Origin: a virus
Reading direction: 5' to 3' (one strand)
Virus record (IMG/VR): IMGVR_UViG_3300028423_001069
Coordinates: 1 to 23,019 of that record
DNA length: 23,019 bases
Translations under genes and position numbers: made by a program
In this document: positions 1 to 13,513 of the stretch, in pieces
Numbering within the stretch: position 1 is the stretch's first letter
Layout of the letters: each line of letters begins with the position of its first letter
The notes under the pieces: model-generated
Database searches by the model: none
What the model saw: only the letters and a program-made list of their open reading frames with translations
Told to the model about the DNA's origin: nothing

Positions 1-366
1 TCGGCCAATGCTACGATACATGTCTTCCAGCATTGTGTAGTCAAAACCGTAGCCTTGTCCCCAGAATGTATCAACACCTACAGAAAACTTTGAAATCTGT
101 GTCATTGCATCTTCTACTGTAACAGCACCTGTTTGATCAAATGCTTCCCCCATGATAGCAGGGTCCTGCTTGCTCCACCATGCAAGAGTTGCATCGCTCG
201 TAGTGCGTCCTAATCTATCTTGATCGTCAATGCTGATCTTAAAATAAAGTTCGGAATGTGGCTCAGCAAAACTAAGCGGATTGAATTTAACAGCACCCAA
301 ACTAAGCACAGTTGCTTGCGGACGAACATCAATTGTTTCAAGGTCGATTGATGCGTGTGTTGCCAA
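1..366 (-). CDS. 3'-5' exonuclease, DEDD/RNase T-like fold (partial, 3' end off the left edge)
   Basis: The reading frame is open from a TTG at 366-364 to base 1 (122 codons). Near the N-terminus is SIDLET, with D8 and E10 as the DxE motif of DEDD exonucleases, followed by LSLGAVKF, the usual beta strand after it. A second acidic motif region, GYGFDYTML (D109), fits the ExoII position. DATLAWWSKQ (58-67) is typical of the phage-associated Rv2179c-like exoribonuclease group. T4-like phages carry a comparable exonuclease (DexA), so a role in nucleic-acid turnover is likely; the substrate is inferred. The TTG start is chosen because AGAGGAG lies at 380-374, 7 nt upstream, and no ATG occurs nearby. 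The first 240 bases are about 45% GC by hand count, richer than most of the window. The last catalytic Asp/His motifs are outside the window. Confidence 0.82.
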   Translation of the reverse strand, partial: MATHASIDLETIDVRPQATVLSLGAVKFNPLSFAEPHSELYFKISIDDQDRLGRTTSDATLAWWSKQDPAIMGEAFDQTGAVTVEDAMTQISKFSVGVDTFWGQGYGFDYTMLEDMYRSIGR

Positions 367-368
367 AG

Positions 369-420
369 AAAAACTCCTCTACTGTTTATATAAAGTATAA
401 CACCTTTAAGTAGAGGAGTC
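369..420 (-). terminator. Intrinsic-type terminator hairpin after the co-chaperonin gene, overlapping a promoter and an RBS
   Basis: ACTCCTCTACT (419-409) is perfectly complementary to AGTAGAGGAGT (383-373), an 11-bp stem with a 25-nt loop followed by a T-run (373-369). It begins 5 nt after the TGA of the GroES-like gene, so it can end the leftward late transcript. The right arm includes AGAGGAG, the Shine-Dalgarno of the exonuclease, so read-through transcripts would have that site base-paired. The long loop is unusual for a terminator and holds the -10 box of the sigma70 promoter. Confidence 0.6.
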
Positions 421-422
421 AA
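394..422 (-). promoter_or_regulatory. Sigma70-type promoter for the exonuclease gene
   Basis: On the minus strand TTGACT (422-417) is followed after exactly 17 nt by TATACT (399-394), a near-consensus host housekeeping promoter. The expected start near 388-387 gives a leader of about 20 nt that contains the AGAGGAG ribosome-binding site. T4-like early genes use host sigma70, so early expression of the exonuclease is inferred. The -35 box overlaps the left arm of the hairpin described separately. Confidence 0.7.
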
Positions 423-424
423 GA

Positions 425-832
425 TCAAGTAGTTACAAATGATGAAGGATCAATAGTAGCAGATTCTCCGTCTCTGTACTCGTTGCCAAGAATAATACCT
501 TCTGGTTTCTCGTCTGCCCAGCCAAGAATACTTTCAGCTTCTACCATTCTAATTTCTTGTTCTTTGCCGTCATCGACGGTAATACCACGTGTCCAACGGC
601 CGTGTTCAACAAGGACCCAATCACCTTCGGAATAAGGATCATCATTGTGAGGTCCTTTTCGATATACTCGTCCCCAGCGTGGATAAACGCCTCTAGTAGT
701 ACCGTCGTCGTCTCTTAGGATGATACCGCTTGCAGTTTTCTGCTCCCCGAAGTACATATCAGAAACTAGTACCCTATTCCCTACAGCTTTGAGATTTTCT
801 TTTATTTCTATGGCGTTATAATTTACGCTCAT
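425..832 (-). CDS. GroES-like co-chaperonin (T4 gp31-type role)
   Basis: The 135-residue protein aligns by eye with GroES: AVGNRVLVSDM at 16-26 corresponds to the first beta strand, KTASGIIL (32-39) is the mobile-loop region that binds GroEL, GDWVLVEHG (70-78) matches the GDIVIF-type strand, and EIRMVEAESILG (93-104) matches the C-terminal strand. It is longer than bacterial GroES (about 97 residues) because of an acidic insert after the mobile loop and a C-terminal tail. In T4 the analogue gp31 replaces GroES so that host GroEL can fold the major capsid protein; the same role is inferred here. The ATG overlaps the upstream gene's TGA as ATGA (829-832), implying translational coupling. A terminator hairpin follows the stop codon. 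Confidence 0.85.
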   Translation of the reverse strand: MSVNYNAIEIKENLKAVGNRVLVSDMYFGEQKTASGIILRDDDGTTRGVYPRWGRVYRKGPHNDDPYSEGDWVLVEHGRWTRGITVDDGKEQEIRMVEAESILGWADEKPEGIILGNEYRDGESATIDPSSFVTT

Positions 833-1179: not shown

Positions 1180-1743
1180 TTATCTTAGAAACTCTTGCCA
1201 ATCTAGGCCATATTGGATAGGATTAATGCGATGCACTCCGATGAGGTATAGCACATAACTTGCTACCGATGATCCTCTGCCTACTCCCCAGACTATTCCA
1301 TTTTTGCGCATAAAGTCCACAAGATAGATCATATATCTAAGCAGATCAAACATGTTGTTTTTATAAAACGCTTCTAGTTCTTCTTCTAGCCGTTTTACTT
1401 CTTTTGTGTTATTTTTTAGGTATACTTCTTCAGGATCTATTTCAAGTTCTCTTGCGATAGCATAGATAAACCATTCTTGTATATCAAGCTGTTTGTATTC
1501 TTCTGGCATTAGCCACTGTGACTGACATGCAGAATCAAATTCTGATTTATCTGCATCAATAGGGATATATTTGTGTAGAGTAGGCAAACCCTGTTCTTGT
1601 GCTGCTTCATTAAATTTATCAACTTCGTCAGAAGGATCGCATAGAACCACATGACATTTGTCCGTTTGACCATTATAGATCATATTGATAAGATCTTGAT
1701 TAGAGAATCGAGGTATCCCCAAGTTATCAGTTTTTATAAGCAT
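1180..1743 (-). CDS. DnaE-like (DNA polymerase III alpha) fragment lacking the catalytic aspartates
   Basis: 187 residues. The C-terminal 70 residues resemble the start of the bacterial C-family polymerase palm: RLEEELEAFYKNNMFDLLRY (118-137) followed by FMRKNGIVWGVGRGSSVASY (144-163), then LIGVHRINPIQYGL and a terminal FLR. GRGSS (155-159) matches the conserved GRGS loop of DnaE. In DnaE, FLN is followed within about ten residues by PDFDxDF, which carries two catalytic aspartates; here a TAA follows FLR directly. The N-terminal 110 residues are not recognised as a PHP domain. The protein therefore cannot be an active polymerase by itself. It may be a nucleotide- or DNA-binding derivative. 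It is an intact ORF in an intact operon, so it is not obviously decaying. A strong Shine-Dalgarno is not visible before the ATG. Confidence 0.7.
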   Translation of the reverse strand: MLIKTDNLGIPRFSNQDLINMIYNGQTDKCHVVLCDPSDEVDKFNEAAQEQGLPTLHKYIPIDADKSEFDSACQSQWLMPEEYKQLDIQEWFIYAIARELEIDPEEVYLKNNTKEVKRLEEELEAFYKNNMFDLLRYMIYLVDFMRKNGIVWGVGRGSSVASYVLYLIGVHRINPIQYGLDWQEFLR

Positions 1744-1980: not shown

Positions 1981-3388
1981 CTACCCATCCTATTTGATCT
2001 ACATAAATCTGTAATGTTTCCGAGTCAGTATTAAATATAAGCTTTCCTGATGCAGGAACTGTAGCATCTCTATCAGACGACGATAGATTTGGAACAATAA
2101 ATTCTGACGGAGCAACATTTCCAACAACTACCGAATTTTCAAAATCAATAATTTCTAAATCGTTTTCTCCTATTACACCGCCTCTTAAAGTTCCTTTTAG
2201 TTCATCAAAAGTTCCGCTTTTTCTTTTTATTCCTATCTTAACACCGCCGTCTGTGCCCCCTCCAATTAGAGATGTGTCAAGTTGATTTTCTACGCCCCAT
2301 AAATATAATGGATTCGGAGTCTCTTCAGTAATTTTTATTTGTACATATGCTCCGTTGGTTCCTGCTTCGCCGTTAATTTCTACATTTTCACTGTATTCTG
2401 TTATACTAGCCGGAACACTAGTATCCGGTGTAGTTGAAAATCTCAAAGCAGCGTCAGAATTTGTTGTGTCAGATAAATCAAATTTATAAATTTTTCCCTG
2501 TTCTAAAGTAAAATCAGCAATTTCGGCGACACGTTCACCGTCAAAGAAAAACTCATCTTGTGCACCGGTTCCGTTATCCTGCACAGTAACAACTATGTTT
2601 TCAACTTCTAATGAATCAGAATTTTCCCATTGTTCTGTATCAAGATTATATCTTAAAACTTGCTTGTCGATGGGTTCATTAATTTGTACATCTTGAAGAT
2701 TTGTTATACCAACTGCAATTTCTAGATCTGGAAAAATAAGAGAACCGTTTACTCGCAAATTACCGTTTATGTTTACATCTCTACTTACACTTAGATTCCT
2801 TACCTCAGTGCTATTACTAAGGTCATTAGAATAAGTTCCGTGATAATGTGCGTAAATGTTTACACCACCGTCAAAACTAGTAAATTCGAATAGTTTATAA
2901 CTATTTTGATTATTTAAAATAATTATTTCTGGCCAATTTCCATCAAAATAGAAAGTTTGATTTTCTATTGTATTAAATGTTATTATATTAGACGATTCAT
3001 TATCGACATTAAAAATTGCTAATTTTATTGAAGCAAAATTTCCATTTTCTGGCCATTTGTTAAATGTAAAATTAACATTATCGCCTACTGTGATTACTTG
3101 AAATGATCCATTTTCGTGAGTAATCTCTGTCGTATTAACAATATTTCCTAAATCAAATACTGATTCTGAAACTGACAAAAGACTTGCATCGGCTATTTGA
3201 TTACCATTAAAGTTTGACTGTCTATCAGTTCTTGCTACATTTTCAGTTAAATCGTCAATTTCTAATTTTGCAATATCAAGATTGTTTTTGATACTACCAA
3301 AATTAGTTCGGAAGCCTTCTGTAGAATTATCTACTCCGGGCGTCGGATAATCGGTATTGATACCGTTTGTGTTAATATTACTGGCCAT
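1973..3388 (-). CDS. Virion structural protein, fibre/baseplate-associated
   Basis: 471 residues. The N-terminus has YPTPGVDNSTEGFRTNF then SIKNNLDIAKLEI, the 'PG.DN.(T/S).GFR.NF..IK.N' signature I know from phage fibre and baseplate-peripheral proteins; it resembles the N-terminal motif of two neighbours. The middle is beta-rich with short 'NGNLRVNGSL' (206-215) strands typical of trimeric fibres, and the C-terminus (SGKLIFNTDSETLQIYVDQI) is a common fibre-tip-like ending. No enzyme motif seen. The ATG is preceded by GGAGGA and, further up, by GATAAATA. The stretch 2881-3060 is only about 22% GC by hand count. Exact position in the tail is inferred. Confidence 0.78.
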   Translation of the reverse strand: MASNINTNGINTDYPTPGVDNSTEGFRTNFGSIKNNLDIAKLEIDDLTENVARTDRQSNFNGNQIADASLLSVSESVFDLGNIVNTTEITHENGSFQVITVGDNVNFTFNKWPENGNFASIKLAIFNVDNESSNIITFNTIENQTFYFDGNWPEIIILNNQNSYKLFEFTSFDGGVNIYAHYHGTYSNDLSNSTEVRNLSVSRDVNINGNLRVNGSLIFPDLEIAVGITNLQDVQINEPIDKQVLRYNLDTEQWENSDSLEVENIVVTVQDNGTGAQDEFFFDGERVAEIADFTLEQGKIYKFDLSDTTNSDAALRFSTTPDTSVPASITEYSENVEINGEAGTNGAYVQIKITEETPNPLYLWGVENQLDTSLIGGGTDGGVKIGIKRKSGTFDELKGTLRGGVIGENDLEIIDFENSVVVGNVAPSEFIVPNLSSSDRDATVPASGKLIFNTDSETLQIYVDQIGWVDV

Positions 3389-3404: not shown

Positions 3405-3412
3405 TATTTATC
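3405..3412 (-). promoter_or_regulatory. GATAAATA late-promoter-like octamer before the 471-residue gene
   Basis: The minus strand reads GATAAATA, 7 of 8 matches to the T4 late consensus TATAAATA. It sits between the upstream stop (TGA at 3413-3411, overlapping the octamer) and GGAGGA. The predicted start (about 3399) would fall at the edge of the ribosome-binding site, so the leader would be very short. Confidence 0.4.
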
Positions 3413-6233
3413 ACAAATTAAATTCATAGTTTGCAAATAATATATACTGTTCCTGCGAACGCCCTTGCGTTGCGTCTATTATAAATCTATCTATTTCTAG
3501 ATGTAGTTGTTTTAAATCAAAATTACTATTTCGTATTGCTGCTAAAATCAGTTCACTATTACCAGGCTTGCAATAGATAAGCGGAACTGCTAATGTAAAC
3601 CCTAATTCTTGAAGACTACCTTCTTGTGGTGTGCGCATCCACAAAGGCAAAAAGTCTCTTTCGTTTTTCCCTACATCTCGAAGATTTTCTCTTAAATTTG
3701 AAGTATTACTTAGATATCTTGTTTGACTCTTGCTGTCACTAACTCTAACAGCGTCGCTGTCGGCTCCGATAAGATTTTCCAGATTTGCTCTATAGAAAAT
3801 ATTTGTTTCTGATCCCTGATTAAATAATATTTCTACTTTGCCAAACTCTCTAGTTGGAAAAAATCGAAAATTTTCAAAACTAATTAATTCAATATCATTG
3901 CGAGTTTCAACTTGAAGATTTGTGTTAAAGTAAATTTTATTGTCATTGTTACCGCGTTGACCAATATTTAAATAAGAAAGAGTAGTAGTATCATACAAAG
4001 GATTATCTGGCGTTGTCTTTATACTATCGACTGTTATTAACTGGTTTGTTGAAATTTTAATTTTCTTTTTATTATCGTTGCTTTCTGCAGGATCAAAAAC
4101 ATCTAAGTATACTACTTCATAAATTTCATTATTAGTTCCAGGTTCTTTTGCTACAGCAGATTTTACGTCTCGTACTTTCAAAGTTTTTCGTTTTGCGTAT
4201 TTTGCAGCAGCACTTACATAAAATTTAGCTTCGACTGTTTCTATACCGGCATAAAGAAGTATTTTAGTTTCTTTTTGTATACCAAAATTTGGATCATTTA
4301 TTCTATAAATATCTTCAGGCGAAACAATAGAATTATCTGTTAAAAAATTAGTTAATTGATTTCGATTTTGTCTTGGAAGAAGGGGTTTATAGTAAATATT
4401 CGAATAAAGTGTGTCGTCTTTGTTTTTTACTAATAAATTAAAAGTTTGAGTAATTGCACTTAACCCAAATTGATCTCTTGCCTTGACTGTAAAACTATAA
4501 TTTGTATCAGTAGGGATTTGTTGGTTTCGTACTTTTCCAAAAATCTCTCCAGAAAAAGACAATTCTAATCCCGGAGGTAGTGTACCAGATTCTAAAGTAT
4601 AGAATAAAAACGAATCGGGAACAGTTGTTTCGGCTTGAATTTTAAGTATTGAAATATAATTACTAGGAATACTGCCTAAATCGCTTGGCGTAATCCATTG
4701 TATAGTGCTATCAATCTCTCCGATTAGTTGAACATTAAAAGTTTTTAAGGTTTCAGCAACTTCTTGAGCTGAAACTGATATCACTCCTAGATCTATACCT
4801 GTTCGAGGTTTTACATATGTTTCTAATGGCTTGTCAAGAAAAAGAACATCATAGTCAGTACTAGATGTGTCAATTCCTATTACTGTATAAAAGATTTTTT
4901 GTATTTCGAATTTCTTGTTTTTAACTCTATTTGTGTTTTCTCTCAATTTATTAATTCTAATACTAGTGCTACCAACAAGTGCTTCTTCTTCTGTAAAAAC
5001 ATTAAGGTCAATTAAATCGTTTCTAGCAGCAACTCTACGAGCATTTACTGTAAATTTATATGTTTTTGTAACTGCTGGCTGGTAAGGAATTCTTCCAAAC
5101 ACTTCTCCTGATTGTTCGTCGAGATCGGTTCCGGGCGGCAATTCACTAAATGTTTCTGCTTCTATTACTTCCCATTGGTCGGGCGAAGAAGCAGAGAAAT
5201 TTGATTGAAGGAAAGTGGGCAAATCTCCTGTTAGTTCATATTTTCCGTTTTCGATTATTTCTCCGGTGCTTTTTAACCTATATTTCCCAGGGTTAGTTAA
5301 TTCAAGTTTGTAGACAATAATTCCAGGAACTTGATTAGGATCTAGTGTATCTAAAAATAGTGTAATAAAGTTATTAGCACGTCTTACTCCTAAATCTTTT
5401 GGAGTTAGCCATATAGGATTTCTTACAAATGTATTATCTGCAGTGAATATTCCAGTTCCTACGTTCATAACTGTATTATCAGACCTTAAGAAATCATCGC
5501 CTACTACAAATATTCTAAAAGTTCTTTTTGCAACAGTGTATCCGTCTGAAACCGACACTGTAAACTGATAATACCTATTTAATTTTCGCGGAACTCTTTC
5601 ATTAACCGCATAATCATAAACTTCTAGATCATAAAAAAAACTGCTATAACCTATTGAAGACTTTATTGCAAAATCATATGGTGTTCGATCAAACCTGCCT
5701 TGATCATAGAAACCTTGCTCAGATTCTTTTTCTAATGCTAAGATTGGGTCAACTACCCCGATTAATCTTCCGTCTTCGGTAAGTGTTATTCCGGGAGGAA
5801 GTATTCCGTCGCCGCTTGCAATAAAATATCTAAGTGTTTGTCCTGCTTCTAAGTCGGGATCAAGTGCTTCTAATTGAAAATCAACCGGATAACTATCTAA
5901 AATAAAATATGTTTCATTGTTTCCAACAGCTAATAGATCTTCAGGAGTTTGCCATACCGGATCATCGGCTCCTTGAATGCTGATAGAAAATGTTCTATCA
6001 TACTTGCTGTTATTTACTATTGCCCTAAGAACGAATCTAAATTTGGTATTTTTTGCAACTTCTTGTGGAGTTCCGGTTATTGTGGTTCCTATCAATTCCA
6101 TTCCGGGAGGAATTGTGCCAGCAATTAGTCTAATCTCAGCATCTGATTGAACAGGTAAATTGATTGTTTTTTCTACACCTTCCTGTAGGAGTGCTAGTGT
6201 AGTATTAGATCTTGCGGTCCAAATGTTCGACAT
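3411..6233 (-). CDS. Large virion structural protein with tandem Ig-like (He_PIG-type) modules
   Basis: 940 residues from the ATG at 6233-6231. At least three modules share a start W-(Q/L/I)-TP-x-DLg (residues 94-100, 275-281, 513-519) and an 'LPPG...G.(I/V/L).G' motif (146-159, 365-380, 552-566), followed by strands such as YKFTVNAR and YSFTVKARD; a fourth PPG motif is at 42-44. This 'PPG + G.I.G + FTV.A.D' pattern is that of putative Ig domains (He_PIG family). The C-terminal 330 residues are beta-rich and unrecognised. The start is placed at ATG, overlapping the upstream stop as TGATG; a TTG one codon earlier is less likely. It is probably a baseplate- or fibre-associated adhesin-like structural protein, expressed with its neighbours. 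Confidence 0.8.
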   Translation of the reverse strand: MSNIWTARSNTTLALLQEGVEKTINLPVQSDAEIRLIAGTIPPGMELIGTTITGTPQEVAKNTKFRFVLRAIVNNSKYDRTFSISIQGADDPVWQTPEDLLAVGNNETYFILDSYPVDFQLEALDPDLEAGQTLRYFIASGDGILPPGITLTEDGRLIGVVDPILALEKESEQGFYDQGRFDRTPYDFAIKSSIGYSSFFYDLEVYDYAVNERVPRKLNRYYQFTVSVSDGYTVAKRTFRIFVVGDDFLRSDNTVMNVGTGIFTADNTFVRNPIWLTPKDLGVRRANNFITLFLDTLDPNQVPGIIVYKLELTNPGKYRLKSTGEIIENGKYELTGDLPTFLQSNFSASSPDQWEVIEAETFSELPPGTDLDEQSGEVFGRIPYQPAVTKTYKFTVNARRVAARNDLIDLNVFTEEEALVGSTSIRINKLRENTNRVKNKKFEIQKIFYTVIGIDTSSTDYDVLFLDKPLETYVKPRTGIDLGVISVSAQEVAETLKTFNVQLIGEIDSTIQWITPSDLGSIPSNYISILKIQAETTVPDSFLFYTLESGTLPPGLELSFSGEIFGKVRNQQIPTDTNYSFTVKARDQFGLSAITQTFNLLVKNKDDTLYSNIYYKPLLPRQNRNQLTNFLTDNSIVSPEDIYRINDPNFGIQKETKILLYAGIETVEAKFYVSAAAKYAKRKTLKVRDVKSAVAKEPGTNNEIYEVVYLDVFDPAESNDNKKKIKISTNQLITVDSIKTTPDNPLYDTTTLSYLNIGQRGNNDNKIYFNTNLQVETRNDIELISFENFRFFPTREFGKVEILFNQGSETNIFYRANLENLIGADSDAVRVSDSKSQTRYLSNTSNLRENLRDVGKNERDFLPLWMRTPQEGSLQELGFTLAVPLIYCKPGNSELILAAIRNSNFDLKQLHLEIDRFIIDATQGRSQEQYILFANYEFNL

Positions 6234-11720: not shown

Positions 11721-12323
11721 TTATTCTCCAACTTTCATAATAAAGTATAATGCACGAAACGGTGGGCGATTTTCGTGAGGGTCGCTTTCTCCTGCAGATC
11801 CGATAGAAATATCGTCTGTGCTAATTGGATGAGTATGATCGCCCGCTGTTCCAAATGACACACTGTGACTATGTTGGCCTCTTGCGGCTAAATTAATAGT
11901 TCTAGCACTTGAAGGTCCTGTTACACCCCTGGTAAACGGAACTCTGCCAGAACTTGGAGTAGTTAGTGCTCCGTTTACAGGATGATTATGTGACGGCGTG
12001 TTACCTACACTTACATTATGAGAGTGCGAACCAGCTAAATTAACATTTAGAGTCGATGAATGAGTATGCTGAGGTATTTCAGGAGATTGTAGGACTACTG
12101 TGTCACTTCCGCCGACGTCTCCTATATTACGAGTATTGCCGGCTCCTAACACAAATTGATTTCTTAAATCTGGTGTACCATTTTGCCCGTTACAGATTTT
12201 CCAACCATCTGGTAATTCTTCTAGAGGCTTCTGCCATATAACAATAGCTCCTACCGGTAACCCTGTAGGTTGAATACTAGAGTCGGGGAATTGTACACCA
12301 GTTGAAACTAAACTTGTACTCAT
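11721..12323 (-). CDS. Tail collar-domain protein, third copy (short-tail-fibre type)
   Basis: 200 residues. The collar fold is marked by LPVGAIVIW (22-30), LPDGWKICNGQNGTPDLR (37-54) and FVLGAG (57-62), ending PHENRPPFRALYFI. Between them are five HxH motifs: 86/88, 100/102, 112/114, 151/153, 163/165. In T4 gp12 and gp37, His residues of this kind coordinate metal ions along the trimer axis, so a metal-threaded trimeric needle is inferred. It is the last of three tandem paralogues. Its ATG overlaps the upstream copy's stop as ATGA (12320-12323). It is probably a receptor-binding or short tail fibre tip component. Confidence 0.85.
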   Translation of the reverse strand: MSTSLVSTGVQFPDSSIQPTGLPVGAIVIWQKPLEELPDGWKICNGQNGTPDLRNQFVLGAGNTRNIGDVGGSDTVVLQSPEIPQHTHSSTLNVNLAGSHSHNVSVGNTPSHNHPVNGALTTPSSGRVPFTRGVTGPSSARTINLAARGQHSHSVSFGTAGDHTHPISTDDISIGSAGESDPHENRPPFRALYFIMKVGE

Positions 12324-12919
12324 GTTGATACCTCCATTATGAAAGCTAAGGCATAGTAAGGAGGTCTATTTTCATGAGGGTCGGCATTATTCAAACTAGG
12401 AGTGTCGCCTACGTTCACTGTTACAGGATGTTTATGGTCTGGTGCTTCGCTCACACTTGAAGGATGACTGTGACTACCTCCGCCGCCTGAATTAAATTTA
12501 AAAGCAAATTTTTCAAAACCGTTTGATTCGTAATTTAGGGCGCCTGTAGCATCTACATTTAAATTTGAAGAATGACTGTGTGATGGTCGAGTACTTGTTG
12601 TTTTATTCGAATGGGAGTGTGATCCTCCAGGATCTACTGCTACATTTTCAACTGGATGAGAATGCTGAGGTAATTTAGGTTGACTAAGAACTGTTGTTTT
12701 CTCCCCTCCTGTTTCGTTTAGCGAATATTTGTCACCGGCTCCTACAATAAAATAATTTCTTAAATCTATGGTTCCATTTTGGCCGTCGCAAAGATACCAT
12801 CCTGACGGAATATTTTCAATAAATCCACCCCAAATAATAATTGACCCAGCAGGCAATGCTGATTCTTGAACAGTTTCATTAGGAAATTTAATTCCTTGAT
12901 TTACAAGTTCTGTGCTCAT
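12320..12919 (-). CDS. Tail collar-domain protein, second copy
   Basis: 199 residues: LPAGSIIIWGG (22-32), IPSGWYLCDGQNGTIDLR (37-54), FIVGAG (57-62), PHENRPPYYALAFIM (181-195). HxH motifs at 86/88, 101/103, 114/116, 150/152 and 162/164 are in nearly the same register as in the neighbours. The N-terminus (STELVNQGIKFPNETVQESA) matches the other two copies, so all three probably dock on the same partner. The segment between 117 and 149 differs most and includes a Gly-rich GGGG. It abuts the first copy (ATG at 12919, stop at 12920) and overlaps the third by 4 nt. Confidence 0.85.
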   Translation of the reverse strand: MSTELVNQGIKFPNETVQESALPAGSIIIWGGFIENIPSGWYLCDGQNGTIDLRNYFIVGAGDKYSLNETGGEKTTVLSQPKLPQHSHPVENVAVDPGGSHSHSNKTTSTRPSHSHSSNLNVDATGALNYESNGFEKFAFKFNSGGGGSHSHPSSVSEAPDHKHPVTVNVGDTPSLNNADPHENRPPYYALAFIMEVST

Positions 12920-13513
12920 CTATAACCTCATCAAAAACATCAAACAAAAAAATGGCGGTAAGTTGTTATGATCGTCGCTATTTCCGATTTCTCCCAAAGT
13001 TATTGACCCAGTGTGTGTATGGGCTCCTTCGTTGCTTATGTTTCCTACAGAGTGTCCATGCGAATCTGCAGGATTAATACTTCCAGTGTTAAGAGAGTCT
13101 GGGCCTGGCAATCTTCCAGCATAGTTAAAAGGAGGCGGAACAGCTAATGCAACTGGAGAATAAGGATGAGAATGCGCTGGAACAGTGCTTACGCTACTGC
13201 TATGACTGTGTTTACCTCCTTCTCCTGTTTCGCCCGACGACGATGACGAATGACTATGTTTGGGGATATTAGGCGATGCTAGCATTACCGTTTCGGCACC
13301 ACCAGTTGAATTTTCGATGTATTCATCGCCAGCACCGACGACAAATTTGTCTCTAAGATCCGGTGTGTCTTGCAAGCCGTCACAAAGAGCCCAACCTTGC
13401 GGTATGTTACTTATATCACCATACCACATAATAATTCCTTTTTGTGGTAAAGCCTTTGTTTGCGTAGAATTATCAGGAAATTCTACCCCTGAATCTAATA
13501 AGCTTGTAGCCAT
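12920..13513 (-). CDS. Tail collar-domain protein, first copy
   Basis: 197 residues: LPQKGIIMWYG (22-32), IPQGWALCDG and TPDLRDKFVVGAG (50-62). HxH motifs at 86/88, 102/104, 114/116, 152/154 and 165/167. The C-terminus has DDHNNLPPFFCLMFLM where the other copies have DPHENRPP, so this one is the most diverged there. A Pro-rich loop (AVPPPFNYAGRLPGP) occupies the variable segment. The ATG directly abuts the stop of the 2601-residue fibre gene, so the three collars are likely translated with it. Role as for the other collar copies, inferred. Confidence 0.85.
   Translation of the reverse strand: MATSLLDSGVEFPDNSTQTKALPQKGIIMWYGDISNIPQGWALCDGLQDTPDLRDKFVVGAGDEYIENSTGGAETVMLASPNIPKHSHSSSSSGETGEGGKHSHSSSVSTVPAHSHPYSPVALAVPPPFNYAGRLPGPDSLNTGSINPADSHGHSVGNISNEGAHTHTGSITLGEIGNSDDHNNLPPFFCLMFLMRL

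Follow-up and report, generated by a model that had tools for sequence, protein, structure and literature searches.

In T4, the genes e (lysozyme), soc, 49, I-TevI, I-TevII, I-TevIII and segB, as well as mobE of Aeh1, carry leader hairpins that sequester the ribosome-binding site (RBS). Long transcripts begun upstream fold the SD (Shine-Dalgarno) sequence into the stem, while a promoter within the hairpin or immediately ahead of it gives RNA that skips the 5' arm and is translated (PMC3014915, PMC2988022). The T4 promoter is a late one (gp55, TATAAATA), and the arrangement delays late genes on early transcripts. Here we describe a locus in an uncultivated phage that shares this layout, while its promoter is of the host type and its hairpin resembles an intrinsic terminator.

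The cassette and its neighbours

The window, i.e., the whole stretch of DNA that was analysed, is a complete IMG/VR record, 23,019 bases long, from an uncultivated phage. Within it, the 58 bases between the stop codon of a groES-like gene and the TTG start codon of an exonuclease gene hold a promoter, an 11-bp stem, a Shine-Dalgarno (SD) sequence and a U-tract. The whole cassette spans 427-364 on the minus strand, see Table 1.

Table 1. Features of the cassette and its surroundings, in window coordinates
Feature	Position	Strand	Basis and remarks
groES-like co-chaperonin gene	425..832	-	stop TGA 427-425; sequence, Pfam, PHROG
-35 hexamer TTGACT	417..422	-	sequence and promoter scan; kept in relatives
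Left arm ACTCCTCTACT	409..419	-	sequence, fold, covariation; present only in upstream-initiated RNA
-10 hexamer TATACT, extended (TGn), in loop	394..399	-	sequence and promoter scan; TATACT/TATAAT in relatives
Predicted transcription start, ~7 nt past -10, in loop	386..388	-	inferred from promoter geometry
Right arm AGTAGAGGAGT	373..383	-	sequence, fold, covariation
SD AGAGGAG of the exonuclease, wholly in right arm	374..380	-	sequence; opening-cost calculation
U-tract UUUUUCUUU after the stem, into the start codon	365..373	-	sequence; U-enrichment in cassettes
Exonuclease gene, 5' part, cut by contig end	1..366	-	TTG start 366-364; Pfam, PHROG, homologue alignment
T4-type late promoter-like ATAAATA	3405..3411	-	before tail-fibre gene (start 3388; PHROG tail fiber protein); same direction as cassette

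An earlier note, made from the sequence alone, had described a perfect 11-bp stem that ends in a T-run behind the co-chaperonin stop. Its coordinates are exact, and the T-run (373-369) is followed by C-TTT as far as 365. The near-consensus sigma70 promoter that it proposed, TTGACT-17-TATACT, is recovered in the sequence and by a promoter scan, which matches 10 of the 12 hexamer bases and places a TG one base upstream of the -10; this call is by sigma70 consensus. The -10 is indeed in the loop and the AGAGGAG in the right arm. The -35, however, was placed in the left arm as a whole, and this is true only of its last three bases, ACT; the rest of the hexamer is outside the stem.

The window has a single occurrence of the pattern CTCCTC-N15-45-GAGGAG, and 100 dinucleotide shuffles have none. 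Folded in silico at 37 C, the RNA reaches -21.8 kcal/mol (z = -2.93), and one in 200 shuffles is equally stable. An inner 5-bp helix is predicted. The loop is 25 nt long, which explains why the hairpin is missing from a terminator scan that permits at most 8 nt. A covariance-model search of positions 250-550 against Rfam gave no match at E<=1. The earlier note had also suggested folding both transcripts, and the contrast it predicted is obtained: opening the SD costs 13.7 kcal/mol in the read-through RNA vs 3.4 in RNA from the predicted start.

The groES-like gene matches Pfam Cpn10 with E=6e-4, slightly under the gathering score, and is head morphogenesis / GroES in PHROG. The exonuclease is a DexA-like / Rv2179c-like 3'-5' enzyme (Pfam PF16473, E=2.3e-20; PHROG 255 exonuclease), and its TTG start is credible because the ATG of the homologues aligns at the same residue. 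Adjoining the groES-like gene, 1180-1743 (-) encodes a short protein that covers just a portion of the DNA polymerase III alpha NTPase domain, with the same neighbour in Pectobacterium phage CBB, whose groES neighbourhood the window resembles. Further away, three tandem genes at 11721-12323, 12320-12919 and 12920-13513 (-) encode ~200-aa proteins that resemble one another, show tail-collar-like motifs (by eye) and look like paralogues.

As in the e/I-TevI type, the SD is predicted to be paired in upstream-initiated RNA, and RNA from the internal promoter is predicted to lack the 5' arm, as the left arm lies upstream of the -10. The window element thus works like these leaders, yet it is no member of the class as defined there: its promoter is host-type sigma70 rather than TATAAATA, and minus-strand positions 340-440 contain no ATAAATA. 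Furthermore, it is the late transcripts that are presumed to be silenced, a -35 base joins the stem, and the U-tract makes the hairpin terminator-like. With intrinsic terminators it shares a GC-containing stem behind an upstream stop and an immediate U-tract (11 bp, then UUUUUCUUU). However, the loop is 25 nt instead of about 3-8 nt and holds the -10, the right arm is the next SD, and the U-tract enters the start codon. Sigma70 promoters with an extended -10 have the same TTGACT/TTGACA, 17-nt spacing and TGn TATAAT, but the cassette's spacer is complementary to the 5' UTR that its promoter produces. This layout is not described in the literature that was searched, outside of which lie most subscription journals.

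Stem, promoter and covariation in relatives

Of the groES relatives, 80 were examined, and the cassette directly follows groES in several of the closest (L002/L003, L005/L006 and L007). L007 has a longer stem, in which two inner pairs are altered on both sides (A-U to U-G, C-G to G-U). The cassette is also present, with different arm sequences, in exonuclease relatives that have a different upstream neighbour (L083, L086, L087, L094). Others (L091-L093, L096-L100) follow directly after another gene or a tRNA-like sequence and have neither promoter nor stem. In L101-L105 and L115 the promoter is present and a strong stem is absent; promoter-bearing homologues of this kind also include L302, L318 and L361, so some lineages can do without the stem.

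A scan for TTGACT-N16-18-TATAAT followed by AGGAGTTTT finds at least 120 places, of which 80 were read. At 43 of these 80, the -35/spacer forms at least eight uninterrupted pairs with the SD region, while random dealing of the arms gives 12.7 (maximum 21). The strict-pattern matches L121, L127 and L130 look like chance. L122 and L132 have TTGACTCCTCTACGCTGTAAAATGTGTAGAGGAGTTTTTTATTATG before a phage gene, with stem, U-tract and SD, but no recognisable -10 at 16-18 nt.

As the pattern fixes part of the sequence, homologues were then collected by protein for three genes: the exonuclease, a ~53-aa membrane-like protein and MazG. For each, the 85 nt upstream of the start were analysed, and identical regions were counted once. 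The measure is the free energy for opening the SD in the read-through RNA; an SD is called buried at 8 kcal/mol or more, and dinucleotide shuffles of the upstream part serve as the null. An earlier stem counter (at least eight pairs, G-U allowed) was dropped as too lax, with 57 expected in the promoter-bearing regions.

The SD is buried in 100 of the 117 regions with a sigma70-like promoter, where 2.2 are expected, and in 1 of the 63 without; these pooled counts include related sequences, and the pooled p-values ignore relatedness. The stem is thus tied to the promoter. By set, the SD is buried for the exonuclease in 28/36 promoter-bearing regions (0.7 expected) vs 0/39 of the others, for MazG in 25/26 (0.7 expected) vs 0/21, and for the ~53-aa protein in 47/55 (0.8 expected) vs 1/3. 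The sole promoter-less region with a buried SD, L338, carries TTGACT-17-TCTAAT. The median opening cost is 13-14 kcal/mol in read-through RNA and ~2 in RNA starting 7 nt past the -10; T4 gene e scores 9.0 kcal/mol by the same measure. Cyanophage mazG was considered and set aside; it is inside an operon, directly behind other genes. The ~53-aa protein (L163, L185 and others; GIGTTG...GWAWPxLY...GIGQENRK) is conserved, stands directly upstream of the exonuclease in many of these phages and has no match in Pfam, PHROG or cultured phages.

The arms covary. The cassettes have stems of 9-18 bp and give 98 distinct arm pairs, with pairing in 909 of 1,078 cells. There are 827 Watson-Crick cells, while column shuffling leaves 661 (at most 692 in any of 300 shuffles), and a register shift of 1 or 2 destroys the pairing. 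At positions 6-11, the pair types vary among A-U, U-A, G-C, C-G and G-U. G-U cells outnumber A-C cells 82 to 29 (90 and 57 after shuffling), and 31 to 3 in the exonuclease set. As G-U is kept and its mirror A-C depleted, this points to sense-strand RNA and not to a DNA dyad. On a tree of 32 exonucleases, a single parsimony reconstruction places on five to six branches, for each of positions 6-11, a change of both sides with pairing kept, ~33 in total; these are the compensatory changes that the earlier note had suggested looking for in related phages. In L442 the pairing reaches the -35 itself: there TTGACC is matched by GGAGG instead of GGAGT on the SD side, and the pair is restored.

Genomic position and cultured phages

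Twenty large related records were searched with the strict pattern. Fifteen have exactly one match and five have none, so the idea that the cassette recurs before many genes of a genome was rejected. It also follows that most other early promoters do without a cassette. Twelve of the single matches show the full cassette, and the other three (L497-L499) differ, with a shorter match and no TATA box. With broader scans, the genomes G003 and G018 each gain one weaker site. The cassette ranks first among all SD-occlusion sites of G003 and of G015, and first among the promoter-linked ones of G018. G003 has a second, unrelated promoter-SD hairpin at contig 74812 (-), TTGACAGTCC...GAGGGCTGAG-ATG before a 402-aa gene, and G018 has one at contig 111686 (-), TTGACAACGTGTGCCT...AGAGGCACACACA-ATG before a 281-aa gene; both are without a T-run.

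In the three genomes that were read out, the cassette is in a syntenic stretch, with tail-fibre genes on one side and a clamp-loader block on the other. In G003 this block contains the clamp loader, endonuclease III, ferredoxin, DHFR, thymidylate synthase (ThyA) and dCMP deaminase; the G018 genes look similar by eye. The gene behind the cassette varies and can be MazG, a ~78-aa protein (L157), the membrane-like protein or the exonuclease, so it is the position at the module boundary that is kept rather than the gene. A same-strand open frame ends ahead of the -35, at a median of 12 nt, in 95 of 96 cassettes.

The motif ATAAATA is strand-biased before gene starts (coding to opposite strand 11:1, 9:1 and 19:1 in three genomes), and TATAAATA, tried as the late motif, is not enriched. 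ATAAATA is likely a T4-type late promoter in these phages. In the window it occurs on the minus strand at 3411, 6966 and 21687 before starts at 3388, 6940 and 21664, upstream of the cassette and facing it. The earlier note's picture of late read-through into an early unit fits these tail-fibre genes with ATAAATA upstream, and also what relatives carry downstream, namely clamp loader, DHFR and ThyA. Gene content and ATAAATA support this picture without proving it, and the exonuclease would then be an early gene.

The nearest cultured relatives of the clamp loader are in Pseudomonas jumbo phages, e.g. Paride and PA5oct (53%), and in Agrobacterium phage Atu_ph07 (47%). A DNA search against cultured phages found no match, and the TTGACTCC form is absent from Paride, CBB and Atu_ph07. 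Nevertheless, Atu_ph07 has buried SDs at 9 of 95 promoter+SD sites (1.0 expected). One of these, at 240018-, reads TTGACA...GGCTCTTGA...TATTAT...TCAGGAGCC-TTTTTT-C-ATG and is ahead of a small gene adjoining the clamp-loader gene. In the Atu_ph07 sequence L535, a 13-bp case precedes the gene at L535:6792, and a hairpin is also present at 3744. Further promoter-terminator-SD hairpins are at 425502+, 195521-, 108173+, 28803- and 322940-, and none of the Atu_ph07 hairpins is in its annotation table as read. The architecture is shared with the window, while the arm sequences are unrelated, so the layout has probably arisen more than once. At some Atu_ph07 sites, however, the left arm begins past the -10 and the start would be inside the arm, so that the internal transcript would hold part of it.

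Proposed termination and masking, and alternative explanations

We consider it likely that the cassette is a compact junction of two same-direction transcription units, in which a terminator and an SD mask act on read-through and the downstream gene's own promoter escapes both. A polymerase arriving from the upstream late unit (tail-fibre to groES) would copy both arms. The hairpin and U-tract would then terminate most of the late-unit RNA at about 373-365, and in the remaining read-through RNA the exonuclease SD would be locked in the stem and left untranslated. A host-type sigma70 polymerase would instead start in the loop and make an RNA without the left arm, in which no stem forms and the SD is exposed. 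The exonuclease would thus be expressed only from its own early promoter.

A T-run of at least four stands behind the stem in 75 of 100 cassettes and behind 0 of 66 other SDs. The nine bases past the SD hold on average 5.9 T in cassettes vs 2.7 elsewhere (p~1e-21, relatedness ignored). Exonuclease genes start with TTG in 20 of 30 cases with a cassette (the other ten with ATG) and in 5 of 45 without (39 with ATG). From the tie of the T-run to the stem and from the TTG starts, which lengthen the U-tract, termination is probably part of the design. However, a quarter of the cassettes keep the stem without a T-run of four or more. Termination is thus not universal, and masking of the SD looks the more constant part. 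Given the 25-nt loop and moderate GC content, termination could also be inefficient. From this pattern we favour that termination and masking act together. That the hairpin only occludes the RBS, as in T4 gene e, with the U-rich stretch an A+T-rich spacer between SD and start and little termination, seems to us rather unlikely, although it would suit the cassettes that keep the stem without the T-run (e.g. L085, L090; the TTGACA...GGAGTGT forms L366 and L387), the second hairpins of G003 and G018, and the long loop, which disfavours termination. The excess of T-runs and U density and the TTG starts that track the cassette speak against it.

It is improbable that the hairpin is an ordinary intrinsic terminator of the upstream operon which overlaps promoter and SD by chance and has no translational role. 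A stem and U-tract immediately behind the upstream stop would be natural in tightly packed phage genomes, but here nearly every stem keeps a fixed register with the SD. The promoter-less loci also follow a gene, yet lack such a stem. A free terminator needs no SD in its arm and need not be lost together with the promoter, and it would hardly retain its stem where the T-run is gone. An inverted repeat acting in DNA, as an operator or cruciform controlling the promoter, was rejected on the shuffle, SD-opening and covariation results and is now very unlikely: the dyad is perfect, brackets the -10 and overlaps the -35, but its arms vary freely with pairing kept, leaving no conserved binding site, and G-U pairs are tolerated. 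Hairpins at 3' ends often stabilise messages, and with stems of this length the element might shield the late message at its 3' end, or an RNase III cut might free the downstream RBS. We give such a processing or stability role equally little weight, as it leaves both the SD register and the occurrence of the stem only with promoters unexplained. Finally, TTGACTCC and GGAGT are both short, and consensus alone makes them complementary in part, so that an AG-rich SD, a TTGACT -35 and a random dyad might coincide. For the cassette family this is refuted by the SD-opening counts and by the covariation of variable pairs outside the consensus, and chance has a negligible probability.

If the junction reading is true, with termination, masking or both, the element reads where a transcript began, and not a ligand or a protein, and it marks the junction from a late to an early module. 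With ~60 bases and neither ligand nor protein, it would restrict a gene to expression from its own promoter, which is the insulation that the earlier note had in mind, and many uncultivated phages have it at a module boundary. The T4 late-gene trick would thereby be extended to host-type promoters and combined with a terminator. On balance, we lean towards a class of self-insulating promoters, so far undescribed and spread widely among large phages, with the -35/spacer antisense to the promoter's own 5' UTR. Such a class would help in annotating the transcription units of phages known only from metagenomes and offers a ready design for compact insulated promoters. Plain reporters and a cultured phage should both allow a test of the element, and given Atu_ph07 the layout can be tested in culture.

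Two sites with the form TTGACTCCT-TATAAT-AGGAGTTTT precede bacterial genes. One is on a Bacillota MAG contig (L531, 5292-5340 +) and the other on a Christensenella MAG contig (L532, 5620-5675 -), where the gene product resembles Rrf2-family regulators by eye. These sites might be bacterial cases of this design, or due to chance.
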